Of a stretch of 61,438 nucleotides of DNA, positions 3,001 to 31,502 are shown piece after piece. The stretch lies in assembly GCA_903907855.1 (NCBI GenBank), contig CAIVPT010000141.1, forward strand, positions 1 through 61,438. Reading direction: 5' to 3'. Position 1 is the stretch's first letter. The number at the start of each line of letters is the position of its first letter. The notes under the pieces are model-generated. The model ran no database searches. It saw nothing but the letters and a program-made list of their open reading frames with translations, and was not told where the DNA came from. The translations under genes were made by a program, and so were the position numbers. This DNA is from an uncultured Synechococcaceae cyanobacterium (GTDB lineage: Bacteria; Cyanobacteriota; Cyanobacteriia; PCC-6307; Cyanobiaceae).

Positions 3001-3165
3001 CGGCTGCTGCTGCAGGTGCACGACGAGCTGGTGCTGGAGGCGGCCCCGGAGGCGCTCGAGGCGGTGTGTGCCCTCACCAAGACCACCATGGAGGAGGCGC
3101 TGCAACTGGCCGTGCCGCTGCTGGTGGAGACCGGCGTCGGCGCCAACTGGATGGACGCCAAATAG
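53..3165 (+). CDS. polA: DNA polymerase I, reading frame broken by one frameshift
   Basis: Replicative and repair polymerase with 5' nuclease, 3'-5' proofreading and polymerase domains; all three look intact. The 5' nuclease part (about residues 60-350) has VDGHSLAFRSF, FEADDV, SGDRDLF and a helix-hairpin-helix GVKGVGPKTA. The exonuclease part keeps the acidic set (LDTETTS, NAKYDR, YCGMD). The polymerase part has motif A DYSQIE at 2443, O-helix KTINFGVIYG at 2596 and motif C HDELVLE at 3019. The frame used from 53 ends at 1615. The correct frame continues from about 1517 to the stop at 3163-3165, so one base appears to be missing at the C9 run 1508-1516. Restored length would be 1037 residues, slightly above the usual size because of Ala/Pro-rich linkers at the N-terminus and near residue 370. 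ATG 53 follows AGGGGG; ATG 65 is an alternative. Confidence 0.93.
1508..1516 (+). other. C9 homopolymer at the polA frameshift
   Basis: Nine consecutive C residues lie inside the exonuclease domain of polA. Upstream of the run the homologous protein is read in the frame of position 53. Downstream it is read one base back, beginning QLPLETVLAALAPW. Ten C residues would restore a single frame. This could be a sequencing or assembly error in a homopolymer, a true mutation, or a slippage site; the sequence alone cannot decide. Confidence 0.85.
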
Positions 3166-3320
3166 GCCGGAACGGGGACCGGACCCTGAATGCCGGTTTC
3201 AGCTAGCAAGTCGCGACCAGGGCTGCGGGATGCGTGATTAACTGTTGCGATCCCGGGACCGCCATCCGTCCCGAATCCTTCGCGCACCGTCTCCTCCGGC
3301 TTTCCGGTTCCGTTCCCGCC

Positions 3321-4841
3321 ATGGTTCATAGCCCGCTGGTTCCGGTCATCCTCTGTGGCGGCACCGGCACCCGCCTCTGGCCCCTCTCCCGCGCCTCTTA
3401 CCCCAAGCAGTACTGGGCCCTCGCCGGCAACCAGGAGGAAACCCTTCTCCAGCAGACCATGCTGCGGCTTCAGGGCCTCCACAGCCTGGGCTCACCCCTG
3501 TTGATCTGCAACGAAGACCACCGCTTCATCGTGGCCGAGCAGATGCGGCAGATCAACGTCGATCCTGCCGCGATCCTCCTGGAGCCCATGGGCCGCAACA
3601 CCGCGCCTGCGGTGGCGGTGGCCGCCCTCAAGGCCACAGCCCGTGGGGAGGATCCCCTGCTGCTGGTCCTGTCGGCCGACCACGTGATCCGCCGACCGGC
3701 TCGCTTCCGCGCCGCCATCAACGCCGGTATTCCCGCCGCCGCCGCCGGCCGGCTGGTCACCTTCGGCATCGTGCCCACCGCCCCGGAAACCGGCTACGGC
3801 TACATCGAAGCGGCCGAGCCCCTGCCCGTAGCCTCCACGGCCCATGGCTCCGCGGCCGATGGACAGGGGGATGACGAGGGCGACGGCACCACTGCCCACC
3901 CCGGAGCGGTTCCGATCGCGCGCTTCGTTGAAAAACCCGACCGGGCCACCGCGGAGCAGTTCCTGGCTTCGGGACGCTTCACCTGGAACAGCGGCATGTT
4001 CCTGTTCCGTGCCTCCACGATCCTGGCGGAGATGGAGAGGCTGTGCCCCGATGTGGTGAGCTTCTGCCGCAGCGCCCTCGAGCACGACAGCGCTGACCTG
4101 GAATTCCTGCGTCTCGAGAGGGAGGCCTTCGCCAGCTGCCCGAATGTGGCGATCGACGTGGCGGTGATGGAGAAGACCGATCGCGGCTCGGTGCTGCCCC
4201 TCAATGCCGGCTGGAGCGATGTGGGCAGCTGGAGCGCCCTCTGGGAAAACTCTGACCGGGACAGCCACGGCAACGTGCTGCGCGGGCGCGTCCTGCACAA
4301 GGACGCCCGCAACTGCTACCTGCGCAGCGAGCACCGGCTGGTGGTCGGCCTTGGGGTCGAGGACCTGGTGGTGGTCGAAACCGACGATGTGGTGCTGGTG
4401 GCCCACCGCGACCGGGCCCAGGACATCAAAGCGATCGTGGGACGCCTGGAGAGCGAAGGGGCGCCCGAAAGCCGAGCCCATCGCCGCATCTACCGCCCCT
4501 GGGGGTACTACGACGGCATCGTCGAAGGCGAACGCTGGCAGGTGAAGAAGATTCAGGTGAAACCGGGCGCCAGCCTCTCGCTGCAGATGCACCACCACCG
4601 CGCCGAGCACTGGATTGTGGTGCAGGGCACCGCCGTGGTGGAAAAGGATGGCCAGCAGGAGCTGGTGGGAGAGAACCAGAGCACCTATATCCCCCTGGGC
4701 TCCCGGCACCGCCTCTCCAACCCGGGCAAGATCCCGGTGGAGATGATCGAAGTGCAGAGCGGCCCCTACCTCGGCGAGGACGACATCGTCCGCTTCGAAG
4801 ACCGCTACGGCCGCACCGAAAGCCCGGTGCTCACCGGCTGA
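3321..4841 (+). CDS. manC: Mannose-1-phosphate guanylyltransferase / mannose-6-phosphate isomerase
   Basis: Makes GDP-mannose from GTP and mannose-1-phosphate, the entry to GDP-fucose synthesis. The protein is 506 residues. It has the nucleotidyltransferase signature GGTGTRLWPLSR near residue 12 and a sugar-nucleotide binding stretch FVEKPDRATAEQFL. A C-terminal cupin (type II phosphomannose isomerase) domain has HHHRAEHWIVV. An upstream in-frame extension to 3234 exists, but ATG 3321 places the GGTGTR motif at the usual distance from the N-terminus. A small acidic Gly/Asp-rich insert lies near residues 170-190. gmd starts 59 bases downstream and is probably co-transcribed. Confidence 0.93.
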   Translation: MVHSPLVPVILCGGTGTRLWPLSRASYPKQYWALAGNQEETLLQQTMLRLQGLHSLGSPLLICNEDHRFIVAEQMRQINVDPAAILLEPMGRNTAPAVAVAALKATARGEDPLLLVLSADHVIRRPARFRAAINAGIPAAAAGRLVTFGIVPTAPETGYGYIEAAEPLPVASTAHGSAADGQGDDEGDGTTAHPGAVPIARFVEKPDRATAEQFLASGRFTWNSGMFLFRASTILAEMERLCPDVVSFCRSALEHDSADLEFLRLEREAFASCPNVAIDVAVMEKTDRGSVLPLNAGWSDVGSWSALWENSDRDSHGNVLRGRVLHKDARNCYLRSEHRLVVGLGVEDLVVVETDDVVLVAHRDRAQDIKAIVGRLESEGAPESRAHRRIYRPWGYYDGIVEGERWQVKKIQVKPGASLSLQMHHHRAEHWIVVQGTAVVEKDGQQELVGENQSTYIPLGSRHRLSNPGKIPVEMIEVQSGPYLGEDDIVRFEDRYGRTESPVLTG

Positions 4842-4900
4842 GCGCCGGGTAAGCCCGTCCGCCCCCATTCCGTTCCCCCCTTCCCCCTTCGCCCCCTGCC

Positions 4901-6019
4901 ATGACCAAAACCGCTCTGATCACCGGGATCACTGGCCAGGATGGCTCCTATCTCGCGGAGCTGCTGCTAGCGAAGGGCTATGTGGTTCACGGCATCAAGC
5001 GGCGGGCCAGCAGCTTCAACACCGAGCGCATCGACCACCTCTACCAGGATCCCCACGAATCCGACCCGCGCCTGGTGCTGCACTACGGCGACCTGACGGA
5101 TTCGACCAACCTGATTCGCATCATCCAGCAGGTGCAGCCGGATGAGATCTACAACCTTGGCGCCCAGAGCCATGTGGCCGTCTCGTTCGAGAGCCCCGAG
5201 TACACCGCCAACAGCGACGCCCTCGGCACCCTGCGCATCCTCGAGGCCGTGCGCATCCTCGGGCTGATTGACAAAACCCGCATCTACCAGGCTTCCACCT
5301 CCGAGCTTTACGGCCTGGTGCAGGAGATTCCCCAGAAGGAGAGCACCCCCTTCTATCCCCGCAGCCCCTACGGCGTCGCCAAGCTGTATGCCTACTGGAT
5401 CACGATCAACTACCGCGAGAGCTATGGGATGTACGCCTGCAACGGCATCCTTTTCAACCACGAAAGTCCCCGCCGTGGCGAAACCTTCGTCACCCGCAAA
5501 ATCACGCGTGGCCTTGCCCGGGTCAATGCCGCCCTCGACCAGTGCCTGTTCATGGGCAACCTCGACTCCCTGCGCGACTGGGGCCACGCCCGCGACTACG
5601 TGGAGATGCAGTGGCGCATGCTTCAGCAGACCGGCATCCCCGAGGATTTCGTGATCGCCACGGGCCGCCAGGAATCGGTGCGTCGCTTCATTGAGCTCAC
5701 CGCCAACCAACTGGGTTGGGGGGGCATCGAGTGGACCGGCAGCGGCGTGGAGGAGCAGGGGCGCCGGGCCGATACCGGTGACCTGGTGGTGCGCATCGAT
5801 CCGCGCTATTTCCGCCCTGCCGAGGTGGAAACCCTGCTGGGGGATCCAACCAAGGCCCACGCCAAGCTCGGCTGGACCCCCACCACCACCCTTGAGGAGC
5901 TGGTGGCGGAGATGGTGGCTGCCGACAAGGAGGAAGCCGCCAAGGAGGCGGTCCTGCGTCGCGAAGGCTTCAACGTGGTCGGGTCGATGGAGAACCCGCC
6001 GATGGCGCTGCAACGCTGA
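4901..6019 (+). CDS. gmd: GDP-mannose 4,6-dehydratase
   Basis: Extended SDR enzyme converting GDP-D-mannose to GDP-4-keto-6-deoxy-D-mannose, the first committed step to GDP-L-fucose. It has the N-terminal Rossmann motif [15 protein letters not shown], the active-site STSELYG, and the YxxxK pair in [11 protein letters not shown]. Length 372 residues is normal. It lies between manC and fcl, the usual order of a GDP-fucose cassette, 19 bases before the fcl start. Confidence 0.96.
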
Positions 6020-6038
6020 TCCCGCCGGAACCCGCACA

Positions 6039-7031
6039 ATGACGTCCCCGATTTCCCCGTCCTCCCTGATCTCCCCCAGCGACCGCATCTTTGTGGCCGG
6101 CCATCGCGGCATGGCCGGATCGGCGATTGCCCGGCGGCTGCGGCAGGGCGGCTATGAACAGCTGCTCACCGCCTCCCGCGACGAGCTCGACCTCGGCAAT
6201 CCCGTGGCGGTCCGCGACTGGTTCGCGGCCTACCGGCCCGAGGTGGTGGTGCTGGCGGCCGCCAAGGTGGGCGGCATCCTGGCGAATGACACCTATCCGG
6301 CAGATTTTCTGCTGGAGAATCTCAAGATCCAGAACCACGTTATTGAGAACGCCTGGCGCCATGGCTGCCGTCGCCTGCTGTTCCTGGGCAGCAGTTGCAT
6401 CTATCCCAAGCTTGCCCCCCAGCCCATCCAGGAGGATTCCCTGCTCACCGGCGCCCTGGAGCCCACCAATGAGTGGTATGCCATCGCCAAAATCACCGGC
6501 ATCAAACTGTGTCATGCCCTGCGCCGCCAGCACGGGTTTGACGCCATCAGCCTGATGCCCACCAACCTCTACGGGCCGGGGGATAACTATCACCCCACCA
6601 ACAGCCATGTGCTGCCAGCCCTGATCCGTCGCTTCCAGGAAGCCTGCGAAAGCGGCACGCCGGTGGTGACTTGCTGGGGCAGCGGCACACCCCGCCGCGA
6701 ATTCCTGCATGTGGATGACCTGGCCGCCGCCGCCGTCCATTGCTTGGAGCGCTGGCAGCCGGGTCCGGACGAGGGGCAGTTCGTCAACGTGGGCACCGGC
6801 ACCGACGTGACCATCCGCGAGCTGGCGGAACAGGTGGCCCAGGCCGTGGGCTACGGCGGCCGCATCGAGTGGGACGCCAGCAAACCCGATGGCACGCCCC
6901 GCAAGCTGCTCGACGTGAGCCGGTTGGCCTCCCTGGGCTGGACCTCCCGCATCTCCCTGGAGGACGGGCTGCGCAGCACCGTGGAGGAATTCATCCAACA
7001 ACGCCAACAGGGTGCGGAGGTTCGCCTTTAG
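6039..7031 (+). CDS. fcl: GDP-L-fucose synthase
   Basis: Epimerase/reductase that turns GDP-4-keto-6-deoxymannose into GDP-L-fucose with NADPH. The protein is 330 residues. It shows the family glycine motif [23 protein letters not shown] (catalytic Ser/Cys region) and the YxxxK motif in [12 protein letters not shown]. The start is the ATG at 6039, immediately after the gmd stop. Together with manC and gmd it gives a complete GDP-mannose to GDP-fucose route from mannose-1-phosphate. Confidence 0.95.
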
Positions 7032-7246
7032 CCCCGCAGCAATTTCACCGCCACAGCGACGAAATAGTTGACCCTTTTCGTATCCACCAGGTCATCTTTT
7101 TCGACCCTGATCAATGACTATTGGCGGGCGCTCCGGTCTGCCGCATACCCCCCAAGCCGGCCGCCGATTCGCCCCCTCGCTGTAGCCAGGAAGGCAAACG
7201 ACTCACCGGTCTCTATGAGAGACTTTCCCCAAGGCATTCGCCCATC

Positions 7247-8254
7247 GTGATCCCAGTGCCCACCCCCAACCCAGCGAATCCGGCAGCGGCGCCGGCCCCG
7301 CACAACACAGCGGAGCTTCCATCCCCTTTATCGCGGCGTGGCATCATCCTCGCCGGGGGCAGTGGCACCCGCCTGGCGCCTCTCACCAGTGCCATCAGCA
7401 AGCAGCTGATGCCGGTGTATGACAAGCCGATGATCTATTACCCGCTGACCACATTGATGCTGGCGGGAATACAAGAAATTCTGATCATCACAACCCCCGC
7501 TGATCAGCCCTCATTTCAACGGCTTCTGGGCGATGGTTCCGCCTGGGGGATCGAGATTCAGTACGCCATCCAACCCAGTCCTGACGGTCTCGCCCAGGCT
7601 TTTCTGATCGGCTCAGATTTCCTTGGAGACCATCCCGCCGCCCTGGTACTCGGCGACAACCTCTTCCACGGTCACGACTTGGTGCCCCAGCTGCAGGCCC
7701 GCAATGGCCCGGGCGCCGGAGCCACCGTTTTCGCCTATCCGGTGAGCGACCCCGAGCGCTACGGAGTGGTGGAATTCGATGGCGAAGGTCGGGTGCTCAG
7801 CCTGGAGGAGAAGCCGAGCCAGCCCCGCTCCCGCTACGCCGTCACCGGCCTGTACTTCTACGACGACACCGTCGTCGAGAGGGCCCGTCGCGTGCAGCCC
7901 TCCCCCCGGGGCGAACTGGAGATCACGGACCTCAACCGTCTTTACCTCGAGGAGGGGCTGCTGACGGTGGAGCTGATGGGACGTGGCATGGCCTGGCTCG
8001 ACACCGGCACCCCCGATTCCCTGCACGAGGCGGCCAGCTATATCCGCACCCTCGAGCACCGGCAGGGCCTCAAGGTGGGCTGCCCTGAGGAGGTGGCCTG
8101 GCGCATGGGCTGGATCGACTCCAGCCAGCTCGAGCGGCTCGCCCAACCGCTGCGCAAGAGCGGCTACGGCACCTACCTGCTCCAGCTGCTCTCCGAGAGC
8201 GTCAGCGACCATGGCGCCCTGCAAACGTCGCTGGAGGTATCCCATGCAGGTTGA
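7247..8254 (+). CDS. rfbA: Glucose-1-phosphate thymidylyltransferase
   Basis: First enzyme of dTDP-L-rhamnose synthesis, joining glucose-1-phosphate and dTTP. Clear signature [16 protein letters not shown], then [16 protein letters not shown] and GDNLFHGHD. The open frame runs back to TTG 7121, but a normal-length protein needs a later start. GTG 7247 or GTG 7256 leave a short Pro/Ala-rich leader before the core, so the start is uncertain. The 215-base gap after fcl is less GC-rich than its surroundings and contains TTGACC at 7068, but no convincing -10 partner. The last 11 bases overlap rfbC. Confidence 0.93.
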
Positions 8255-8828
8255 TCGCTTTGCCGTCGAGGGCCCGCTGCTGCTCACGCCGCGGGTCTTC
8301 GGAGATGACCGTGGCTACTTCCTCGAGAGCTGGAACGAGCGCGGCTTCGGCCAGGCCCTGGGGGTGGAGGACGGGGAAGCCCCCGTGTTCCGCCAGGACA
8401 ACCAATCAAGCTCCTGCCGGGGCGTGCTGCGGGGCCTCCACTACCAGCTCGAGCCCGAACCCCAGGGCAAGCTGGTGCGCTGCGTCGAGGGGGAGATCTT
8501 CGATGTGGCCGTCGACATCCGCCGCAGCTCCCCCACCTTCGGTCAATGGGTGGGCGCCCGCCTGAGCGGCACCGATCACCGCCAGCTCTGGGTGCCGGTT
8601 GGCTTCGCCCACGGCTTCCTCACCCTGAGCGAGAACGCGGTGGTGCTCTACAAGGCCAGCGGCTTCTGGAACCGCGAGTGCGAGCGCTCCCTCCGGTGGG
8701 ACGACCCCGATCTGGCCATCGACTGGCCACGGCAGGATCTGGGGGACCAGGAGATCCTGCTGGCCGACAAGGACGCTGCCGCCCCGGGCCTGGCCGAAGC
8801 CATCGAGCGGGGGGATGTGTTCCGATGA
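8244..8828 (+). CDS. rfbC: dTDP-4-dehydrorhamnose 3,5-epimerase
   Basis: Cupin-fold epimerase acting on dTDP-4-keto-6-deoxyglucose. The protein is 194 residues. Family landmarks are [13 protein letters not shown] near the N-terminus, the active-site histidine region [25 protein letters not shown], and [14 protein letters not shown]. It begins inside the end of rfbA and ends with a 4-base ATGA overlap with rfbD, so the three genes are translationally coupled. Confidence 0.96.
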
Positions 8829-9709
8829 CCAAGGTGTTGCTCACCGGCCGGGATGGCCAGCTGGGCCAGGAGCTGGTCATCACCGCCCCCGCCGGGGTAG
8901 AGCTGATCATCACCGGCCGCGCCGAGCTCGACCTGGCCGATGCCGCCGCCTGCGCCGCCGCCGTGCGAGACCATCGCCCCGACTGGGTGCTCAACGCCGG
9001 GGCCTACACCGCGGTGGACCGGGCCGAAGGTGAGCCCGAGCTCGCCCATGCGGTGAATGCCAGCGCCCCAGGCGCCTTTGCGGCCGCCCTGGCGGAAACA
9101 GGCGGGCGCCTGCTGCAGGTGAGCACCGATTTCGTCTTCCAGGGCGATCAGGGCCATCCCTATGCCCCCAACCAGCCCATGCGACCGCTGGGCGTGTACG
9201 GAGCGAGCAAGGCCGCTGGCGAAGAGGCCGTGCAGTCCGCCCTGCCGGCCGACCGCTTCTGCATCCTGCGCACCAGTTGGGTCTACGGGCCGGTGGGGCG
9301 CAATTTCTGCCTCACGATGCTGCGTCTCCACGCCGCGAAGGCCGCCGCTGGCGAGCCCCTCGCCGTGGTCGCCGACCAGGTGGGCTGTCCCACCGCCACC
9401 CCGGGCCTGGCTGCCGCCTGCTGGGCGGCCCTCGACCGGGGCGTGAGCGGCTGGCATCACTGGAGCGACGCCGGCGCCGCCAGCTGGTACGACTTCGCTG
9501 TGGCGATCGGCGAACTGGGGGTCGCCCGCGGCCTGCTGGCCACCCCCGCCGAGGTGCGACCGATCGCCACCAGCGATTACCCCACCCCGGCCCAGCGTCC
9601 CTCCTACTCGCTGCTCGACTGCCGCGCCAGCCGCGAGGCCCTGGGGCTGCCGCCCCAGCACTGGCGCGCTGCCCTCGCCGGCGTGATCCAACGGGTGCCC
9701 ATTCCCTGA
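8825..9709 (+). CDS. rfbD: dTDP-4-dehydrorhamnose reductase
   Basis: Last step of dTDP-L-rhamnose synthesis, NADPH-dependent reduction of the 4-keto group. The protein is 294 residues. It has the Rossmann motif LTGRDGQLGQEL at the N-terminus, STDFVFQGDQGHPY, and the YxxxK motif in GVYGASKAAGE. The ATG overlaps the stop of rfbC. The gene order rfbA-C-D-B puts the dehydratase last rather than first. Confidence 0.95.
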   Translation: MTKVLLTGRDGQLGQELVITAPAGVELIITGRAELDLADAAACAAAVRDHRPDWVLNAGAYTAVDRAEGEPELAHAVNASAPGAFAAALAETGGRLLQVSTDFVFQGDQGHPYAPNQPMRPLGVYGASKAAGEEAVQSALPADRFCILRTSWVYGPVGRNFCLTMLRLHAAKAAAGEPLAVVADQVGCPTATPGLAAACWAALDRGVSGWHHWSDAGAASWYDFAVAIGELGVARGLLATPAEVRPIATSDYPTPAQRPSYSLLDCRASREALGLPPQHWRAALAGVIQRVPIP

Positions 9710-9769
9710 AAACACCCACCCCGGCCTGACCCCGTTCCTCCCCCGCCCGTTTCCGCCGTCCCTGCCCCG

Positions 9770-10906
9770 ATGAGCAGCCTTCCGCCCTCCACCGCACCTG
9801 GCCCCTCCCCCGACCACGCCCTTCCCGCCGTGGACACCCTGCTGGCGGGGCGCCGCCGCATCCTGGTGACCGGCGGGGCCGGCTTCATCGGCTCGGCGGT
9901 GGTGCGCCGCCTGCTGCGCGAGAGCGATGCCACGGTTTTTAACCTCGACAAGATGGGGTACGCCAGTGATCTGACCAGCATTGAGGCGGTGCTGGCGGAG
10001 CTGGGCGAGAAAGCCACCACTGCCGAGGGGCCGCGCCACCAGTTGCAGCCGGTGGATCTGGCCGACGCCGAGGCCACTGCCGCCGCCGTCCGCCAGGCCG
10101 ATCCCGACCTGGTGATGCACCTGGCGGCCGAGAGCCACGTTGACCGCTCCATCTCCGGCCCCGGCGCCTTCCTTGAGAGCAACGTGCTCGGCACCTTCAA
10201 CCTCCTCCAGGGAGTAAGGGCCCACTGGGAAGCGCTGGGCGAGCCGCGTCGCGAGGCCTTCCGCTTCCACCACATCAGCACCGATGAGGTGTTCGGCAGC
10301 CTCGGGGAGAGCGGCCGCTTCAGCGAAACCACCCCCTACGACCCCCGCAGCCCCTACTCCGCCAGCAAGGCGGCCAGCGACCATCTGGTGCGGGCCTGGT
10401 ATCACACCTACGGCTTGCCGGTGGTGCTCACCAACTGCAGCAACAACTACGGCCCCTGGCAATACCCCGAGAAGCTGATTCCGGTGGTGATTCTGCGGGC
10501 GGCGGCCGGCGAGTCGATCCCTGTGTATGGCGACGGGCGCAACGTGCGCGACTGGCTGTATGTGGAGGACCACGTCGACGCGCTGCTGCTGGCGGCCACC
10601 AGGGGCCAGCTGGGAGAGAGCTACTGCGTGGGCGGTCACGGGGAGCGCAACAACAACGAAGTGGTTGAGCGCATCTGCGCTCTGATGGATGAACTGCGTC
10701 CCGAGGCAGCTCCCCACAGCGGCCTGATCACCTCCGTGACCGACCGACCCGGACACGACCGTCGCTACGCCATCGATCCCACCCGCATCCGCGAGGAGCT
10801 GGGCTGGCACCCGCGCCACAGCTTCGAAGAGGGATTGGCCGCGACCGTGCGTTGGTATCTCGAACACCACGCCGCCAGCCGCGCCGTTCTCGCCCACCAG
10901 GGCTGA
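9770..10906 (+). CDS. rfbB: dTDP-glucose 4,6-dehydratase
   Basis: SDR enzyme producing dTDP-4-keto-6-deoxyglucose. It has the nucleotide-binding motif VTGGAGFIGSAVVRRLL, active-site HISTDEVFGSLGE, and the YxxxK motif in SPYSASKAASDH. The protein is 378 residues, about 20 longer than usual, owing to a Pro/Ser-rich N-terminal leader before the Rossmann fold. It may therefore start a little later than ATG 9770. It closes the rhamnose cassette, 60 bases after rfbD. Confidence 0.95.
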   Translation: MSSLPPSTAPGPSPDHALPAVDTLLAGRRRILVTGGAGFIGSAVVRRLLRESDATVFNLDKMGYASDLTSIEAVLAELGEKATTAEGPRHQLQPVDLADAEATAAAVRQADPDLVMHLAAESHVDRSISGPGAFLESNVLGTFNLLQGVRAHWEALGEPRREAFRFHHISTDEVFGSLGESGRFSETTPYDPRSPYSASKAASDHLVRAWYHTYGLPVVLTNCSNNYGPWQYPEKLIPVVILRAAAGESIPVYGDGRNVRDWLYVEDHVDALLLAATRGQLGESYCVGGHGERNNNEVVERICALMDELRPEAAPHSGLITSVTDRPGHDRRYAIDPTRIREELGWHPRHSFEEGLAATVRWYLEHHAASRAVLAHQG

Positions 10907-10962: not shown

Positions 10963-13900
10963 ATGGTCGCCCTCAGCAGCAGCAACCGCGAAGGCACCAA
11001 TCCCGCCATCCGTGCGCGGGTGTTTTCGATCTCCGCCTTCGATGCCCCCTGGTATCTGGAGGTCAACGGGATCAGCGGCGTGGCCCTCACCAAAGCCTGG
11101 TCGCACTTCCGCTCCATCGGCCAGGCCCGGGGCCTCCGCGCCCGCTACGACGTGAGCGAGGTGGTGCGGGCCCTCCTGCACGAGCGCTACGGACCCGCCA
11201 TCGGCGGCATGATCGATAACCTCCTGGAGCGCAGCGGCCGGGGGCCGGTGCTGTTCTATCCCGAGAATCTCCCCGATCAAGGCCGCCACCGCAGCAGCAC
11301 GATCGACCCTTACTACGCCTTCGCCGAGGTGTTCGGTCGGGAGTTGCGGCGGCTCAATCCCTACGGAAAGCTCCTGAACCTGCGGGCCCTGCTCCAGGAG
11401 TCCAGCGACGGCAGCAACAGTGCCAACGGCATGGTGCTGCACATGCTGGAGGCGTGTGTGCTGCCCACCTACGCAGCCATTGAGGCCAGGCGCGAACGCT
11501 TCGGCAATGGCTGGCAAGGGAACTTCGCCAACCTCTCGGCGGAGGAAATCAGTGGGGTGGAGAACTGCTTCGATGCCGATTTCTACTGCGGTGCCTATGC
11601 CGATATCCGCATGTCTGGGGTGAATCCCCTTGGCCATTTCCTCAGCCAGGGGCGGCTGGAGGGCCGCCAGTGCACACCGATTCTCGATCCCGCTTATTAC
11701 CTCAGTGAAAATCCCGACGTTGATGCGGCCGGGGTTGACCCCTTCGTGCACTACATCATGCACGGCTGGCGTGAGCGCCGCAATCCCAGCGAAGCCTTTC
11801 CCCACGCCTGGTTAGCGCGGGTGTTTCCCGAAGCCCTCAAACATCCGAACGGATTCTGCGGGTATCTCGGCCGAGAGATCTCCGGGGAGCAGAAGCTGCA
11901 GGTGCTGCACGCCAATTACAACAGCAGCGACAACCCTGATTTCCGCCCCCGGCCCGATCGCTGCATCCCCGCCAGCGACCATGACACCTTTCGGGTGTTT
12001 GCCTTCTATCTGACTCAGTACCATCCCATCGCCCAGAATGATCTGGCATGGGGCCAGGGTTTCACTGAATGGCGCAACGTAACCAAGGCGTTCCCGCGCT
12101 ACTTCGGCCACTACCAACCCAAGCTTCCCACCGACTCCACCCTCTACGATCTGCGCCTGCGCGAAAACATCATCAATCACGTGGAGCTGGCTCGCCAGCA
12201 TGGCGTGAATGGCTTCTGCTTTTACTATTACTGGTTCAGCGGCGAGAGGGTGCTGGAGCAACCCCTGGATCTGTTTCTGCAAGCCCGCGAGGAGGCCAAT
12301 TTCCCCTTCTGCATCCTCTGGGCCAACGAAAACTGGACCCGCAAGTGGGATGGCAAGTCGAAAGATGTGATCATCGGCCAGAAATACCACCAATCCGATG
12401 CGTTGCAATTCATTCAAGATGTCGAGCCTATTCTGCTGGATTCACGCTATGAGAGGGTCAACGGAGCGCCGATCCTGATTGTCTACCGACCGGATGATCT
12501 TCCTGATTGCCAGCGCTGTGTGGGGGTCTGGCGCGACTACTGGCGAGAGCAGGGCCACGGCGAATTGCATCTTGTTTGCGTGCAGTTTCTGCCGGATACG
12601 AAACCTGAAGACTATGGCTTTGATGCCATGCTGCAATTCCCTCCCAACGGCTTTCCCAACCACGGAACCCATCAAAAGATCGCGCGCTACACCCGCACAT
12701 TTACCGGCAATCTCTACAGCTACGACGAGATGCAGTGGCGGGCGATGGTGCAGCAGTACAACCACCCCGTTTACCGCACCAGCGTTCCCTCCTGGGACAA
12801 CGAATGCCGCCGCCCCCAGCAGGGCGATGTGTTCGTAGGTTCAACACCGGCAAAATTCCGCGATTGGACCGCCTCCAACCTGCTCCATTCCAGTCGCGAC
12901 AACCAGGCCCACCTCTCCTTCGTCAACGCCTGGAACGAATGGGCAGAGTCGGCCTGTCTTGAGCCAGACAGCCGCTACGGCTACGCCCACCTCGAGGCCC
13001 TGGCCGATGCGCGCGCCATCGCTTCGGTGCAATCGGAAGCACAGTTTTGGATCGCCACGCACAGTTGCGCGATCATGATTCACGTTTTTTATCTCGATAC
13101 CTTCGAGGCCATCGCCGAACGCCTGCAGAGTTATCAGCACAACGTCGATCTTTACATCACCCTACCAGCCCTAGGCTGCAGCGAGAAGATCGCCAGCATT
13201 CGCCAGCGTTTTCCCCAGGCCCGCTTCTTCATCGCCGACAACCGCGGCCGTGACGTTCTTCCTTTCCTCTCGCTGATTCAATCGCTGAATGCACGCCGCA
13301 TTCATTATACCTACGTCTGCAAGCTGCACACCAAGAAGTCATTGCACCGCAGCGATGGCGCCGCCTGGCTAGACGACATGGTCGACTCCCTGTTGCCGCG
13401 GGAGGGACACCAGCGGGTCAAGCAACTGTTTCAAGGGGGCGTCGGCATGTTGATCCCCCGCGATCACGCCATCTCCCTGCGCGAATTCATGGGCGGCAAC
13501 GAAGGCCTTCTCGATCGAATCCTCGAAGCCAACGGCGCCCTTGAACGCAAGAACGCCGACAGCTACTTCTCCAGCGGCACCATGTTCTGGATCCGCGGTG
13601 AGGTGCTGGCCGGCCTCAGCCAGGAGGAGGCCACCTACAGCTTCGAATACGAACGGGCCCAGGTGGATGGCACCCTGGCCCACGCCTGGGAACGGGCCAT
13701 GGCGATGCTGGTGCAGGCCCGCGGCCTTCAGTGCCTCCACTCCGATGGCAGTGAGGTGCAGGTGGCGGCTCCGGGCAGCTATCGCTTCGCCAACCTGGAA
13801 GGGCGGGTGGATCTGGGCTCCAGCGTCGACCGCCGCACCGCCGATGTGGTACGAAGCCTGCAGCGGGAGGCTCCAGCCGCCCGCGAACGGGTGGCGATCC

Positions 13901-14697
13901 TGGCCACCTTCCTGCGTGATGACAAGGATGTGGCGAACGTGCGCAGGATCGGCGCTTACCTTCGCCGCCACGGCTTTTTCGTGGCCTGCGTGAATCCCGG
14001 CTTTGACACCAGCCAGCTCTGCGACGACAACCAGCTGGTCGATTATCTCCACTGCGACCTCTATGTGGAACGTCGCAATAGCGGCTATGACTTTGGATCC
14101 TGGGCCGAGGGATTTTTCACCCTCAAGGCCCGTGGCGAACTCCACTCCGAAACCACCCAGGAACTGCTGATCATCAACGACAGCTGCATTTTAACCGATG
14201 AAAACTCCGACCTAATTGACAAGGCTCGTTCCATTCCTGTTGACGTGGTCGGCCTGACTGACAGCTACCAGTTCCTCCATCACATCCAGAGCAACTTCAT
14301 GCTCGTGCGCCGCTTCCAGCATTGCGACACGGTGCTCGACTCCTTCTTCACCGAATACCTGGGAAGGTCGCTGCAATCCAAAGATGACGTCATCCAATAT
14401 GGGGAACTTGCCTTGGCACGCAAGTTTGAGCAGATGCAGATCCAGTGCAAACCAGTATTTGAGATGCAGCAGCTCCTGGCGATGACCCAGGAGAAATACG
14501 CCGACAGTCCAGCCGGCAGCTGGGAGCGGCAGACCGCGGACAAACTGGCTGAGGGCCAGCTGCTCAATCCCCACCACTACCTGCATGAAGCTCTCTATCT
14601 CGACCTGGGCTGCCCCCTGATCAAGAAGGAATTGCTGCGCGATAATCCCGGCGGTTTCCCCGAGGTCGACCGCTACCGCGAGCGCGTTCCCCACTGA
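10963..14697 (+). CDS. Large WbsX / RgpF-type polysaccharide assembly protein
   Basis: A 1244-residue multidomain protein. Residues 1-340 have no family I recognise; they contain repeated aromatic stretches such as FDADFYCGAYADIR and LDPAYYLSENPDVD. About residues 345-660 match the WbsX family found in O-antigen and capsule loci: FAFYLTQYHPI, GFTEWRN, FCFYYYWFSG, ANENWTRKWDG and FVNAWNEWAE. About residues 700-900 and again 980-1180 resemble rhamnan synthesis protein F, with IADNRGRDVLPFL and CKLHTKKSLHR in the first copy and RRNSGYDFGSWAEG and LLIINDSCIL in the second. It follows the dTDP-rhamnose genes, consistent with rhamnose-containing glycan assembly. No signal peptide or membrane segment is evident, so it is probably cytoplasmic. 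ATG 10963 is preferred over upstream in-frame codons that overlap rfbB. Confidence 0.88.
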   Translation: MVALSSSNREGTNPAIRARVFSISAFDAPWYLEVNGISGVALTKAWSHFRSIGQARGLRARYDVSEVVRALLHERYGPAIGGMIDNLLERSGRGPVLFYPENLPDQGRHRSSTIDPYYAFAEVFGRELRRLNPYGKLLNLRALLQESSDGSNSANGMVLHMLEACVLPTYAAIEARRERFGNGWQGNFANLSAEEISGVENCFDADFYCGAYADIRMSGVNPLGHFLSQGRLEGRQCTPILDPAYYLSENPDVDAAGVDPFVHYIMHGWRERRNPSEAFPHAWLARVFPEALKHPNGFCGYLGREISGEQKLQVLHANYNSSDNPDFRPRPDRCIPASDHDTFRVFAFYLTQYHPIAQNDLAWGQGFTEWRNVTKAFPRYFGHYQPKLPTDSTLYDLRLRENIINHVELARQHGVNGFCFYYYWFSGERVLEQPLDLFLQAREEANFPFCILWANENWTRKWDGKSKDVIIGQKYHQSDALQFIQDVEPILLDSRYERVNGAPILIVYRPDDLPDCQRCVGVWRDYWREQGHGELHLVCVQFLPDTKPEDYGFDAMLQFPPNGFPNHGTHQKIARYTRTFTGNLYSYDEMQWRAMVQQYNHPVYRTSVPSWDNECRRPQQGDVFVGSTPAKFRDWTASNLLHSSRDNQAHLSFVNAWNEWAESACLEPDSRYGYAHLEALADARAIASVQSEAQFWIATHSCAIMIHVFYLDTFEAIAERLQSYQHNVDLYITLPALGCSEKIASIRQRFPQARFFIADNRGRDVLPFLSLIQSLNARRIHYTYVCKLHTKKSLHRSDGAAWLDDMVDSLLPREGHQRVKQLFQGGVGMLIPRDHAISLREFMGGNEGLLDRILEANGALERKNADSYFSSGTMFWIRGEVLAGLSQEEATYSFEYERAQVDGTLAHAWERAMAMLVQARGLQCLHSDGSEVQVAAPGSYRFANLEGRVDLGSSVDRRTADVVRSLQREAPAARERVAILATFLRDDKDVANVRRIGAYLRRHGFFVACVNPGFDTSQLCDDNQLVDYLHCDLYVERRNSGYDFGSWAEGFFTLKARGELHSETTQELLIINDSCILTDENSDLIDKARSIPVDVVGLTDSYQFLHHIQSNFMLVRRFQHCDTVLDSFFTEYLGRSLQSKDDVIQYGELALARKFEQMQIQCKPVFEMQQLLAMTQEKYADSPAGSWERQTADKLAEGQLLNPHHYLHEALYLDLGCPLIKKELLRDNPGGFPEVDRYRERVPH

Positions 14698-14776: not shown

Positions 14777-16996
14777 TTGGTAAGCGTCTTCGACCGTGCC
14801 GCCGCCGCTCCATCCGTGGCGGACCTGGCCGCCGGCACCTCCGGGGGCTGGGCGGTGGCCGTGGGTCTGCAGGACCCGGTGTTTGTACGCGAGCTCCAGC
14901 CCCGGCTCGCGCGGCTGCTGCTGGTGCAAGCCAATCCGCGTCTGGCCGAGCGGCTGCGGGAGGACTGGCCGGCCGGTCCGCCCGCCGGCGTACAGCTTTC
15001 GGAGGAGCCGCTCGGCCCCCGATCGGAGGAGGTGACCTGGTACCGCTACAACGATCCGCGCCTCGACGGCCCGCTGCCCCCCGACCAGCTGCCCACCCGC
15101 TTCCGCAACCTCAGCCTGTTGGGCGAGGAGCGCCGCCAGCAACGCACGCTTGCGGAGTTGGTGCAGCAATGGTGGGAGTCCTCCGGGACTCCGGAGGGCG
15201 AGGGGGCCCTGCTGGTGCAGGGGCCCGACCCCGCTGCCGTGCTGGCCGGGGCCGCCCCGTTGTTGCCCCATCTGGAGCGGGTGGTGTGCTGGCTCGAGAA
15301 CGGCGGTCGCCGCGAGCCCGTGGCTCTTCCGGAATCCGCCACCGCGCTGCTGCGGGAAGCCTGCTTCCAGAGCGACCCCCAGGATCCCGGTTGCTGGCGG
15401 CGCGATCTGCGGCTACTCCTGCGGCGGGAACTGACGCAGAGCCAGACGGAACTGGCCGAAACCCGCCAGGAGCTGGCCCAAAGCCGCCAGGAACTGGCCG
15501 GAGCCCAGGAGGAGATCGCCCGGAGTCGCCAGGAACTCAGCCAGCACCAGGAGGAGCTGGCCCTCACCCACCAGGCGCTGACCCAGAACCAAGAAGACCT
15601 CGCCCTCACCCATGAGGCCCTAACCCAGAACCAACAGGAGCTCGAGCAGGTCCGCTCAGAGATCGAGCAGGTCCGCTCAGAAATCGAGGAGGTCCGCTCA
15701 GAACGGGAGCTGACCCAGTCTGAGCTCGCCCAGAGCCGCCAATCTCTCACCGAAACCCAACAGACAGCGCAGCAGGCAGCCGATCAGGCCCAGCATCAGC
15801 TCGCGCAGACCCGCCAGGAGATCGGGGAGGCGCGCCAGACGATCGAGCAGGCGCAGCAGCGGATCGTCCGCCTCGAAGACGAAGCCCAGGGCCAGGACCG
15901 CTCCCTCGAAGCCCGGGAACTGCAGGTGGCCGAGCTGGCGGAGAGTGGCCGCGCCCTGGCCGCCCAGCGCGACCAGCTGGCGACCGACTATCAAGCACTG
16001 CAGCTCCGCACCGGCGAACTGGACAGCCACCGGGCTGAGCTGCAACGGGAGCTCGATGGCCTCCATCTGCAACGGGAGGGGTTGATCAGCCAGCTGCAGG
16101 TCCTGGAGATGGAGGCCGACCAAGCCCGGCAGGAACGGGATGCCCTGAGGGTGGCGGAGGAGGACCTGCGCCAGCAGCGCGACATCCTGCGGGCCGCCCA
16201 CGATCTGGCGATGGAACAGCGCGATGGCCTCGAAGCCGAGCGCGCCGCCCTGGAGATCCGCAGCCGTGAGCAGCGCCAGACGATCGGAGTGCTGGAGAAA
16301 GAGATGGCCCAACTCCGACAGGAACGGGACAGCTACCACGCCGCCCACGACCAGGCAGTCCAGCAGCGCGACGAACTGGACGGCCAGCGCAGCCTGCTGG
16401 AGGCCGAATGCGCCTCCCAGGCGGAGAAACGGACCACGCTGGAGCAGGAACGGGACGGGCTGCAGCAGGAACGGGATGGCCTGCAGCAGGAACGGGATGG
16501 CCTGCGCCGCTCGGACAAAGAGCTGCAGGGGACCCTTGCCGAGCTGCAGGCGAACGTCCTGGAGCTGCAGCGCGAACGCCACAACCTCTGGGAGCTGCGC
16601 GATGCGCAGCAGGTTCAGCTGCACAAGCTGGAGGAAGAAAATCGGGTTCTCCGGGAAGAAGGGGCGGAACTGCGGCCGGTTCGTGAGGCTCTCGAGACCG
16701 AACGCCATGCCCTCTGGGAGCAACGGGACCTGCTGCGCGAGGAGCTGGAACGACTGTCGGAGGAACGCGACTCGTACCACGTGGCCCACGACCTAGCCGT
16801 GCGCCAACGGGAGGAACGCGATGCGGAGCTCCAGGAACTGCGGGAGGCTCGCGAGAGGGAACGGGCCGAAATCGAGGGGCTGCGGGAACGGCAGGCGGAG
16901 CTGTCGCGGCTGACCAGCGAGTCGGAACGGCAGGTGGCCCTGATCCGCGATCTCTTCGTGCAGGTGAGCACCGCCCGCGCCCAGCCCGAGGCATGA
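14777..16996 (+). CDS. Long coiled-coil protein with a degenerate FkbM-like head
   Basis: A 739-residue protein, function unknown. Residues 1-220 are globular and include YNDPRLDGPLPPD and LLVQGPDPAAVLAGA, which recall the late motifs of FkbM-family methyltransferases; no clear S-adenosylmethionine-binding glycine motif is seen. From about residue 220 to the end it is an almost unbroken Gln/Glu/Arg-rich coiled coil. It includes tandem heptad-like repeats (QSRQEL, THQALTQNQ, QVRSEIE, QQERDGL). The TTG at 14777 is the first start after the previous gene; GTG 14816 is an alternative. Its stop overlaps the sulfotransferase start by 4 bases (ATGA), suggesting coupled synthesis. A scaffold role is possible but is only inference. 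Confidence 0.75.
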   Translation: MVSVFDRAAAAPSVADLAAGTSGGWAVAVGLQDPVFVRELQPRLARLLLVQANPRLAERLREDWPAGPPAGVQLSEEPLGPRSEEVTWYRYNDPRLDGPLPPDQLPTRFRNLSLLGEERRQQRTLAELVQQWWESSGTPEGEGALLVQGPDPAAVLAGAAPLLPHLERVVCWLENGGRREPVALPESATALLREACFQSDPQDPGCWRRDLRLLLRRELTQSQTELAETRQELAQSRQELAGAQEEIARSRQELSQHQEELALTHQALTQNQEDLALTHEALTQNQQELEQVRSEIEQVRSEIEEVRSERELTQSELAQSRQSLTETQQTAQQAADQAQHQLAQTRQEIGEARQTIEQAQQRIVRLEDEAQGQDRSLEARELQVAELAESGRALAAQRDQLATDYQALQLRTGELDSHRAELQRELDGLHLQREGLISQLQVLEMEADQARQERDALRVAEEDLRQQRDILRAAHDLAMEQRDGLEAERAALEIRSREQRQTIGVLEKEMAQLRQERDSYHAAHDQAVQQRDELDGQRSLLEAECASQAEKRTTLEQERDGLQQERDGLQQERDGLRRSDKELQGTLAELQANVLELQRERHNLWELRDAQQVQLHKLEEENRVLREEGAELRPVREALETERHALWEQRDLLREELERLSEERDSYHVAHDLAVRQREERDAELQELREARERERAEIEGLRERQAELSRLTSESERQVALIRDLFVQVSTARAQPEA

Positions 16997-22144: not shown

Positions 22145-22164
22145 AGGTTCGCCCGCCCAGCCTG

Positions 22165-28710: not shown

Positions 28711-29937
28711 TCACTGGCGATGGCTGGCCTGCATCCCGAGCACGAATTTGGTGAGGCTGAACATCACAAGGCAGCTGGCCAACACGGTGAAGAATCCCTT
28801 GCTCTTCCAGCCGTGCTGGGGGTCTTCGGGCATCTGGGGAGCGGAGAGCAGGGCCATGAACTTCTGCTGGCGCTTGCTCTCCACCCTCGCCTTCTCCACA
28901 GAGGTGAGGGCAAGCTTGTAGGTGTCGGTGGCGAAGGTCACATCGGATTCGAGCTTCACCACATCCGCCGCCTTGCGGTTGAGGTTGCGACCTTTGCTGG
29001 ACACCAGCGAGCGGCGCTCCTGGGCAATCTGCGCCTCCAGCTCCTTGGCCTCATCGGCGATGGCGAGCACCTCCGGTTCACGGGGATCCTTGTATTGACG
29101 CCGCAGGGTGGCCAGCTCCACCTTCTTCTCCACCAAACGCTCCTGCAGCTTGCTGATCGTGGCGCTGGCGAGCTCGGCCTCCCCCTTGGGATCGATCACA
29201 ACGGCGTTGGCGTTCTGATAGGTGATGAGGCGATTCTTGGCCTGCTCAAGATTGGTACGGGTTCGCCGCAACTCCTCCTCAGCAAAATCGAGTTGCTTTA
29301 GGCTTATATCTTGGTTGAGACGGTTCACAAATTGCTCGCTCTTGGCGAGCATAAAGCGATTGAGATCAAAGGAGGATTTTGGGTTCAGGCCAACGGTGCG
29401 CAACACAATTGCACCGGAGAGTTCATCGAGAGTCACCGAAACCTGCTTCTTGAAAAAGCCAAGACGCTTCTCGGGGCTCAGCCCGGGTTTGATGCCGGCG
29501 AAGGGGTCGCGGCGGTCGCGGGCGTAGGCGGCATCGAGGTCGTAGCTGCGGCTGAGATCGTTGAGCACCTGCGGCGACTGCAGGTAGGTTTTAAGGAAGC
29601 GCGCATCCTCGAGCGAAAGCTGGTTGGTGCGGCCGAGCAGGGAGCCGAGGCTGCCGCCATCGGCATTGGCGGCATCCTCCGCCTTGCGGATCACAAAATC
29701 GGAGCGGGTGACGTAGCGATCCCGGGCAACGGCAAAGAAATAGAAGGCGGAAGCTGCAATCGGCAGCAGCAGCAGCTGGGCCACGGAAAGCCGCTGCAGT
29801 GGGTTGACGCGGGGCCGGGGTGGCTTGATGGGAACCACCTTGCCGTCGGTGGCAATGGCGTCGTCGGCGAGCTTTTCCTCCTCCTCCGGGCGGGCAAAGA
29901 AGCGCTTGAGCGGATTGGCGTTGTCGAGGTCGTACAT
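28711..29937 (-). CDS. kpsE: Capsule export inner-membrane protein, KpsE-like
   Basis: A 408-residue polysaccharide co-polymerase/export protein of the KpsE/BexC/CtrB type. It has a basic cytoplasmic N-terminus, a first membrane segment LLLLPIAASAFYFFAVA near residue 55, a long periplasmic part with coiled-coil helices (residues 230-350), and a second membrane segment GFFTVLASCLVMFSLTKFV near the C-terminus. It would bridge the KpsMT transporter to the outer-membrane exporter. There is no C-terminal tyrosine kinase domain, unlike Wzc. The 18-base gap to kpsT indicates one operon. Confidence 0.87.
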   Translation of the reverse strand: MYDLDNANPLKRFFARPEEEEKLADDAIATDGKVVPIKPPRPRVNPLQRLSVAQLLLLPIAASAFYFFAVARDRYVTRSDFVIRKAEDAANADGGSLGSLLGRTNQLSLEDARFLKTYLQSPQVLNDLSRSYDLDAAYARDRRDPFAGIKPGLSPEKRLGFFKKQVSVTLDELSGAIVLRTVGLNPKSSFDLNRFMLAKSEQFVNRLNQDISLKQLDFAEEELRRTRTNLEQAKNRLITYQNANAVVIDPKGEAELASATISKLQERLVEKKVELATLRRQYKDPREPEVLAIADEAKELEAQIAQERRSLVSSKGRNLNRKAADVVKLESDVTFATDTYKLALTSVEKARVESKRQQKFMALLSAPQMPEDPQHGWKSKGFFTVLASCLVMFSLTKFVLGMQASHRQ

Positions 29938-29955
29938 GGCCGGGGAAGGGCGGGT

Positions 29956-30660
29956 TCAGAGAGCGGGATCGCTGGAGAGGGCGGGGGCGGACTCGGTGCC
30001 GGCGAGCAGGCGATCGGTGTGAATCGCCACAGCCTCGTCGAGATTCTCGAAGATCTCAATCTTACCGTCTTCCAAAATGAAAGCCCGATCGCAGTGCAGC
30101 TTGAGCCCCCAGAGGTTGTGGTCCACCATCAAAAAATCGGCATACTTCTTGCGATCAAGAAGCACACGCTTGCTCTTCTCGCGGAAACGCTGGTCGCCCG
30201 CAGCCGTCACCTCGTCGATCAGGTACACATCAAAGTCGAACGCCATCGACAGACCAAAGGCGACCCGGGAGCGCATGCCGCTGGAATAGGTCTTGAAGGG
30301 GCGGTCGAAGTAGACACCCAGCTCGGCGAATTCCTCCACATACCTCACCTTGCGCGGAACATCCGCCTTGCCAGCGTAGATGCGGCTCACAAACGTGACG
30401 TTCTCCCGCCCCGTGAGGCTCCCCTGGAATCCGCCGACGAGCCCCACGGGCCAGGAGATGGAGGCATCACTCTCAATGGTGCCGCTATCGGGCAGGTCGA
30501 TGCCACCGAGCAGGCGCAGCAAGGTGCTCTTGCCAGCCCCATTGGCCCCAAGAATGGCCACCGACTCCCCCGTTTCAATGGTGAAGTTGAGGTCTTTGAG
30601 CACCACGCTGCGCTTGCCCTGGTAGGTGAAGCTCTTCGTGAGGTTGCGTACGCGGATCAT
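29956..30660 (-). CDS. kpsT: Capsular polysaccharide ABC transporter ATPase, KpsT-like
   Basis: ATP-binding subunit powering export of the lipid-linked polysaccharide. Over 234 residues it shows Walker [20 protein letters not shown] signature [12 protein letters not shown], Walker [10 protein letters not shown], and an H-loop histidine in MVDHN. This short form has no C-terminal carbohydrate-binding extension, as in group 2 capsule KpsT rather than O-antigen Wzt. The ATG shares one base with the kpsM stop (TGATG), so the two are coupled. Confidence 0.93.
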
Positions 30661-31502
30661 CAGAGGGTCAGCAGACGTCGCTCGTTGTTGGCGTAGATCC
30701 AGAGGGCGATGGTGGTCTGGATGGTGACCCAGATCAGCACGTACTCCAGATTGGCGTCGGGGGTGAAGTAATCATCGCTAAGGGAGCGGCGGTTGAGCTC
30801 GATGCAATGCATCAGTGGGTTCCAAACGAAAAAAGGTTTGGACCAGACGGGAAAGGTCCAGTAGCGGAAGGGAACGCCAGAGAGGAACCAAAGGATGCGC
30901 GGTATCCAAACCGCAACTTGGTTAAAGGCTGGCACCAGATGGCCGGCGGTCATGAAGATCAGGCCTGTCGAGAATCCAAGCGCCGCGGAAAGTAGCAGGG
31001 AGATCAGAAAAAGGCCAAGATCGGCTATCACCATCTGATCGAGGTAGATCCAGGTGCCCGCCAGAATCACGAAGAAGCAGCAGGTATAGAGGCCGGTTTC
31101 ACAGACCGTACGGGCAATGACGGTATCGATCGGCTTGACTGGCCGGTAGAACAGCAGGGCTTCATTGGCATCCATCGCCGTCAGGCTGCGGTTGGCGATA
31201 TGGCTAAAAATACTGAAGAGGATGATGCCAGAGGTAAGAAAAAGGATGATATTGAGGCTGCCACCGCGGTTGAGGTTGATCGCCGAGAGAAAGGCCAGCC
31301 AGATCGCCAGCAGCCCCAGGGGCTGCAGCAGCACCCCCAGAAAGCCTCCCCGTACTTCGCTGACGCGTGTGCGCAGCTCGCGATACACCAGCGCATCCAC
31401 AACCCGCCACTGGATCTGCCAGCCACTGAGGTTGTGGATCCCGTCCCGGCCCCGCCCCGGGGGCCCCCCGGGGCGCCTGCGATCGGCCGTGGTGGAGGAC
31501 AA
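30660..31502 (-). CDS. kpsM: Capsular polysaccharide ABC transporter permease, KpsM-like
   Basis: Membrane subunit of the exporter, 280 residues with about six hydrophobic segments (for example [47 protein letters not shown]). It ends in a typical ABC-2 type tail with [11 protein letters not shown]. The N-terminal 35 residues are Arg/Gly-rich and cytoplasmic. The frame opens with TTG at 31502; a later start is possible. It heads the minus-strand operon kpsM-kpsT-kpsE-GT2-PhyH-beta-domain protein. Confidence 0.9.

Follow-up and report, generated by a model that had tools for sequence, protein, structure and literature searches.

On contig CAIVPT010000141.1 of an uncultured Synechococcaceae cyanobacterium (assembly GCA_903907855.1), the whole 61,438 nucleotides of which are called the window below, a gene beginning at position 10963 encodes a single chain of 1244 amino acids that unites a WbsX domain with both halves of the RgpF domain. 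The protein is probably a cytoplasmic enzyme of glycan assembly, in which two GT-A-type glycosyltransferase (GT) modules and a GH99-like module would cooperate on a surface polysaccharide exported by an ATP-binding cassette (ABC) transporter. It represents a variant of the widespread building of surface sugar chains and not a one-off oddity.

Order of the RgpF halves

The Pfam scan of the protein disclosed WbsX (PF14307) once and RgpF (PF05045) in two stretches (Table 1), which confirmed the open frame and the domain content described in a first, sequence-only reading of this DNA. That reading had taken the two stretches for RgpF-like copies. Scanned alone, the first stretch matched positions 268-502 of PF05045 with 103 bits (E 2e-29; cut-off 25) and the second positions 17-180 with 20 bits (E 3e-4), under the same cut-off. 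Tandem copies were rejected, since the stretches map to different halves of the model; judged by these profile positions, the two halves of one RgpF model lie in the chain with the C-half ahead of the N-half. The N-to-C order of PF05045, as in the loci L099-L103, was not found here, the C-half coming first. Comparison of the C-half and N-half profiles with each other gave P values of 0.012 and 0.024; an N-x-G-x-D motif was collinear in the two, and a common origin of the halves is possible. When the N-half module was aligned with 14 N-half sequences, the conserved motifs proved to be retained, identity to other N-halves amounting to 16-25%. These motifs, the same order in L082, L083, L086 and L087 with strong Pfam scores, and the GT-A-like fold described below support its weak assignment.

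Of 386 genomes drawn evenly from the phylum, 99 had PF05045 matches, many of which covered one half alone. By half-profiles built in this analysis, the canonical N-to-C order was assigned to L099-L103 and L142 and the reversed order to the two-module proteins L138-L141, while the genome studied here has one further N-half protein at a separate place (L003). Because the halves occur singly and in either order elsewhere, RgpF reads as a pair of separable modules. Two independent, order-swapped modules would make the Pfam entry a composite and would offer a direct route to assigning one linkage to each module.

WbsX as a relative of GH99

The WbsX domain matched PF14307 over its full length (positions 1-350 of 350) with 372 bits against a cut-off of 25.1. 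A profile of 20 WbsX domains, searched against the PDB sequences with E values of up to 1 accepted, retrieved GH99-type enzymes only, with values of 2.4e-10 for OpGH99A and 1.5e-7 for 4ad1, the matched region lying largely in the C-terminal portion of the domain. Among 100 aligned WbsX segments, a few of them copies of the present sequence, the Glu pair E659/E662 (Table 1) was kept in 97% and 100%, respectively. In GH99, the two Glu of the EWxE motif are described as the catalytic residues (PMC11025385) and the mechanism as running via a 1,2-anhydro sugar (PMC11403624). WbsX thus appears as a GH99 relative with an intact Glu pair, and its transferase label as an assumption; bacterial WbsX is called a transferase by annotation in PMC6467956, PMC9723277 and PMC6985545. 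Searches of the open-access literature yielded nothing that joined WbsX with RgpF, or GH99 with O-antigen, glycosyltransferase and biosynthesis, and no enzyme study was found there among the papers on bacterial WbsX.

It is a serious possibility, to which we give somewhat less than an even chance, that WbsX functions as a GH99-type glycosidase or transglycosylase, which trims, edits or branches the chain, and that only the RgpF modules use nucleotide donors. The homology to endo-mannosidases and endo-mannanases with the catalytic pair aligned, the conservation of this pair in the family, and a transferase name that in the literature found goes back to annotation only all point in this direction. 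However, WbsX occurs in biosynthetic loci and is fused to GT-type modules, and it is chiefly the C-terminal portion of the domain that matches GH99. Nonsense and frameshift mutations in a wbsX gene of Burkholderia gladioli (>1,450 residues) confer resistance to an O-antigen-dependent phage, and the mutants were interpreted as producing aberrant O-antigen (PMC13391952). Such proteins therefore matter for the surface glycan, and a builder fits the mutants at least equally well. WbsX is widely annotated as a glycosyltransferase, belongs by its sequence to a glycosidase family and is joined to GT-type modules in many bacteria; learning whether it adds, cuts or transfers would settle the interpretation of numerous O-antigen and capsule loci.

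Predicted fold of the RgpF modules

An AlphaFold2 (AF2) model of residues 685-1244, computed from 33 sequences, reached a predicted local distance difference test (pLDDT) value of 81 and comprised two alpha/beta domains with a disordered linker. Foldseek placed the chondroitin polymerase K4CP (2.2e-7) and heparosan synthase 2 (7.3e-7) at the top of the PDB matches of the two-module model; next in rank was human LH3, which also bears glycosyltransferase domains. For the N-half, VIA-align gave Z values of about 13 (up to 13.5) with mannosylglycerate synthase and the fucosyltransferase WrtF, and of 11.8 with RmlT bound to TDP-rhamnose. Since nucleotidyltransferases of the GlmU type, which share the same general fold, obtained comparable scores, the N-half match shows the fold and not the function. 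At the level of sequence, phmmer found no PDB entry matching the whole protein up to an E value of 1, and the profiles of both halves gave chance-level matches only. GT-A-type folds are predicted for both halves. Structure prediction had been named by the sequence-only reading as a check on its view that the C-terminal segments are glycosyltransferase-like, and the models bore this view out, the pair being nearest to two-domain GT polymerases.

Proposed role and its alternatives

The polysaccharide would contain rhamnose and probably fucose and would be exported by an ABC transporter, an interpretation supported by the rml genes, the GDP-fucose genes and a KpsMTE-like exporter in the window. 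The two RgpF halves, whose fold is predicted, would serve as GT-A-type modules extending the chain, and dTDP-rhamnose is a likely donor in view of the adjoining rml genes and of streptococcal RgpF; the gene indeed lies directly behind rmlA, rmlC, rmlD and rmlB, as observed at first reading. WbsX, with its GH99 fold and intact Glu pair, may transfer or remodel one linkage of the repeat. The helical head and the repeats at the N-terminus probably dock the enzyme to partners, for instance the coiled-coil protein encoded by the next gene.

Several points weigh against this role. The template modelling scores of the pair were low (0.2-0.25 by query length), and the fold searches were made with the pair and with the N-half alone, so that the C-half was covered via matches to both modules only (heparosan synthase, 338 aligned residues). 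The acidic DXD after the fourth strand is absent from both GT-A modules: at this place the N-half has N-D-S-C (in the family N-[D/N/T]-[S/T]-C, with N in 33 and D in 23 of 33 sequences) and the C-half H-T-K-K-S (in the family H-x-K, H and K each in 93 of 94). The modules may be metal-independent, or one of them may be inactive. The KpsT-like ATPase of the window has 234 residues and showed the ATPase domain only in Pfam; this length seems to leave no room for the carbohydrate-binding module found in Wzt-type terminator systems. No enzyme activity of a WbsX protein was found in the open-access searches. Finally, at least two rml genes were located near 17 of 63 loci in which WbsX is followed by the RgpF C-half (WbsX-C) and near one of five loci with all three modules (WbsX-C-N), within flanks of about 6 kb. 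Rhamnose is thus not a fixed partner, as such genes accompany a minority of both kinds of loci; among WbsX loci without RgpF, the fetched flanks of one in 12 held at least two of them. These figures refer to 80 loci, kept of 536 relatives found in genome contigs and ranked by similarity to this protein, which favours fusions.

That a single enzyme would add several residues is plausible. In a version of the sequence-only reading with three glycosyltransferases in one chain, each adding one residue of the repeat unit, we regard the idea as doubtful. The two GT-A-like folds, the adjoining rml genes and, as a precedent, a Klebsiella O7 chain with two rhamnosyl GT2 modules (PMC11231755) agree with it, but WbsX belongs with a hydrolase family and the rhamnose genes are not constant neighbours. 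It is also rather unlikely that one RgpF module, or both, lacks catalytic activity and acts in acceptor binding or as a scaffold, as the missing DXD motifs and the divergence of the N-half could suggest. Strong purifying selection on both modules (see below), the conserved family motifs still present in them and the existence of solitary RgpF halves in other genomes speak against this assumption.

Integrity of the gene

The ATG at 10963 is situated 56 bases past the stop codon of rmlB. An alternative upstream start, TTG 10852, would let the gene overlap with rmlB; the interval between rmlB and the ATG fits a non-coding spacer, because it has diverged freely from L019, a separate contig of a Synechococcaceae metagenome-assembled genome (MAG). 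L019 encodes a counterpart of likewise 1244 amino acids, 1205 of which are identical (97%). The two genes differ at 290 bases, 244 of them third positions, and the proteins at 39 residues. The ratio of nonsynonymous to synonymous substitution rates (dN/dS) was 0.04 over the whole gene; by part, it was 0.20 in residues 1-201, 0.01 in WbsX, 0.03 in the C-half module and 0.06 in the N-half module. Every module is under purifying selection, and the frame of 1244 amino acids is a working gene. A fusion created by misassembly or a decaying gene, for which one might point to the draft state of the genome (320 contigs), is ruled out for practical purposes by the equivalent protein of L019, by the excess of nucleotide over residue differences and by the recurrence of the same module order in L082, L083, L086, L087 and L134.

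Surrounding locus

The features of the gene and its surroundings are compiled in Table 1. Two of the exporter assignments, BexC_CtrB_KpsE with 230 bits and KpsM with 126 bits, remained under NCBIfam's own cut-offs. The product of the gene following the WbsX-RgpF gene matched no Pfam family, the first 200 residues included, and no recognised cap domain. Its periodicity makes it in all likelihood a long coiled coil, which is a candidate for a scaffold or chain-length ruler. The gene behind it showed a weak sulfotransferase-like match (21.9 bits; cut-off 27). A second coiled-coil-like open reading frame of 932 amino acids (21976-24774, + strand; 3.5-residue periodicity with z up to 13.5) gave no clear match to a Pfam family over its scanned portion. 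At the left end of the window, a putative polA gene, named from its sequence, extends over 53-3165 (+ strand) in two overlapping frames, 53-1615 and 1537-3165, with a run of C near 1510 just ahead of the frame shift. A sequencing error and a real frameshift are both possible.

Table 1. Features of the WbsX-RgpF gene and of its locus in the window (aa, amino acids)
Feature	Position	Strand	Basis
WbsX-RgpF(C)-RgpF(N) gene, 1244 aa	10963..14697	+	open frame from ATG 10963 to stop; Pfam
Lineage-specific helical head, residues 1-201	10963..11565	+	no Pfam/NCBIfam match; low-confidence AF2 model
Two helical repeat units of ~38 aa, residues ~204-275	11572..11787	+	own profile matches relatives; AF2 pLDDT ~75-89
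WbsX domain, GH99-like, residues 345-680	11995..13002	+	PF14307, E 3.9e-111; profile matches GH99 structures
NEWAE, residues 658-662, GH99-type Glu pair E659/E662	12934..12948	+	aligned with NEWHE of GH99
RgpF C-half module (putative GT-A), residues 692-921	13036..13725	+	PF05045 positions 265-502 in whole protein, 268-502 scanned alone; AF2; fold matches of pair
Disordered linker between modules, residues 943-969	13789..13869	+	AF2 pLDDT <50 (model 259-285)
RgpF N-half module (putative GT-A), residues ~979-1230	13897..14652	+	PF05045 positions 17-180; alignment; AF2 and fold matches
manC, gmd, fcl (GDP-L-fucose pathway)	3234..7031	+	NCBIfam GMP_PMI, gmd over cut-off; GDPFucSynFcl 477.5 bits (cut-off 500)
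rmlA, rmlC, rmlD, rmlB (dTDP-L-rhamnose pathway)	7121..10906	+	TIGR01207, TIGR01221, TIGR01214, TIGR01181, all over cut-off
Next gene, 739 aa, long coiled-coil-like region	14777..16996	+	3.5-residue hydrophobic periodicity, z 4-10, residues 151-700; few Pro/Gly
KpsE-, KpsT-, KpsM-like exporter genes	28711..31502	-	Pfam ABC_tran, ABC2_membrane over cut-off

N-terminal head and helical repeats

Residues 1-344 had no match in Pfam or NCBIfam, in agreement with the unassigned head of about 340 residues reported at first. Part of it, the repeat at residues ~204-275, is nevertheless seen in many relatives. Its consensus, FDxxYYLxxNPDVxxxGxxPxxHYxxxGxxEGR, carries no name in either database, and the unit also exists in L021, L078, L080 and others, where it accompanies WbsX, RgpF modules and further proteins of such loci. 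Residues 1-201 were present in one of 201 genomes of the family, the one studied here, and by this comparison the head is new in sequence. The AF2 model of the head reached a pLDDT of 54.6 overall and was confident only around residues 200-280.

Distribution and history of the fusion

Among the 80 best relatives, 63 were WbsX-C, five WbsX-C-N (L019, L082, L083, L086, L087) and 12 WbsX without RgpF, so that WbsX and the RgpF C-half are joined in 68. On a contig from a viral collection (L134), the order C-WbsX-C-N was found. In the phylum sample, WbsX occurred in 31 of the 386 genomes; of 31 WbsX loci read, each of about 4 kb, one, the present one, contained the fusion; ten longer stretches around long frames of this sample revealed no additional fusion. 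At six of the 31 loci (L005, L007, L153, L156, L158, L169) a separate RgpF-type gene adjoins WbsX, and this adjacency indicates a joint function of the two. The WbsX-RgpF fusion is thus nothing unusual in other phyla and rare in this one. The rarity claimed by the sequence-only reading was overstated in view of the similarity-ranked relatives, also for the three-module order (5 of 80), although the fusion is scarce in the phylum sample. A different arrangement was observed in the family sample, where the chain of 1191 amino acids encoded by L143:1571-5146 has WbsX followed by the RgpF C-half and, after an unassigned linker, another WbsX.

In the tree of the WbsX modules, a clade of 70 members (support 0.97) left the stand-alone WbsX of the same genus outside, and a nested clade of 10 (0.94) united this protein with L082, L083, L086 and L087. 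The latter four were not grouped with it in the tree of the C-modules, where the nearest nodes had supports of 0.21-0.78. The histories of the modules thus disagree, and the branches are long. Transfer from other phyla is likely, as far as these trees can tell.

Comparison with known systems

The WbsX-RgpF fusions of Xanthomonas, Stenotrophomonas, Caulobacter and others (PF14307 plus PF05045) have the same WbsX and C-half modules in the same order and in a single chain. They mostly stop after the C-half, whereas the protein described here adds the N-half, the orphan head and the repeats. L082, L083 and L086 (MAGs of gut Firmicutes) and L087 (a Thiobacillus MAG) likewise carry WbsX, the C-half and the N-half in this order. 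In L086 and L087 these modules are preceded by a methyl- or sulfotransferase domain and by coiled-coil matches, where this protein has the repeat head instead.

Within the 68 chains joining WbsX with the C-half, 42 have at least 150 residues ahead of WbsX, and Pfam assigned methyltransferase models to up to 10 and sulfotransferase models to five of these N-termini. A coil periodicity with z >5, by a rough test without a proper null, was detected in eight of the 68. In six of the eight (L026, L034, L064, L065, L077, L086) a methyl- or sulfotransferase precedes the coil; L057 showed no such enzyme, and the head of L083 is short. Two further WbsX-RgpF(C) chains, L024:4645-8661 and L068:4120-8751, were observed to carry a sulfotransferase-type domain in front; behind RgpF(C), L024 has a capsule-synthesis NKWYS domain and L068 a methyltransferase.

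In the six relatives with both cap enzyme and coil, the succession of cap enzyme, coil, WbsX and RgpF corresponds to the plan of Klebsiella O7 ORF6 and O12 WbbB, which are described as characterised polymerase-terminators with the coil as a characteristic marker of the strategy (PMC11231755). In these proteins and in O3 WbdD/WbdA, several GT modules share one chain, a coil and a capping enzyme belong to that chain or to its complex, and export is of the ABC type. The Klebsiella systems use other GT families, and RgpF and GH99 are not named in the parts of PMC11231755 drawn on here; the open-access literature searched contained nothing joining coiled-coil, molecular ruler, O-antigen and sulfotransferase. 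Within the window, a separate gene with no identified capping domain encodes the coil, and an ABC ATPase with a carbohydrate-binding module, which is absent in some polymerase-terminators, was not found. The parallel would hold for the family rather than being proven in the window, and a terminator or ruler role of WbsX-RgpF proteins is suggested by analogy. We consider it possible, though on balance improbable, that WbsX-RgpF chains form an undescribed class of polysaccharide polymerases, which would combine the glycosidase-type chemistry of a GH99 fold with two GT-A modules that lack the acidic metal motif, and which would in many cases be preceded by a methyl- or sulfotransferase cap and by a coiled-coil ruler; RgpF would then be a shuffled GT-A pair of free order.

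The GH99 endo-alpha-mannosidases and mannanases share a homologous domain and the catalytic EWxE pair with WbsX (PMC11025385). The studied GH99 enzymes are glycan-degrading or Golgi glycosidases, whereas WbsX resides in loci that build polysaccharides. Streptococcal and lactococcal RgpF, which acts in rhamnan synthesis and has been proposed as the rhamnan polymeriser (PMC8327497, PMC9746298), contains both halves and has rml genes and an ABC exporter nearby, as is the case here. Compared with it, the cyanobacterial protein exhibits the halves in reversed order, a fused WbsX and a divergent N-half.

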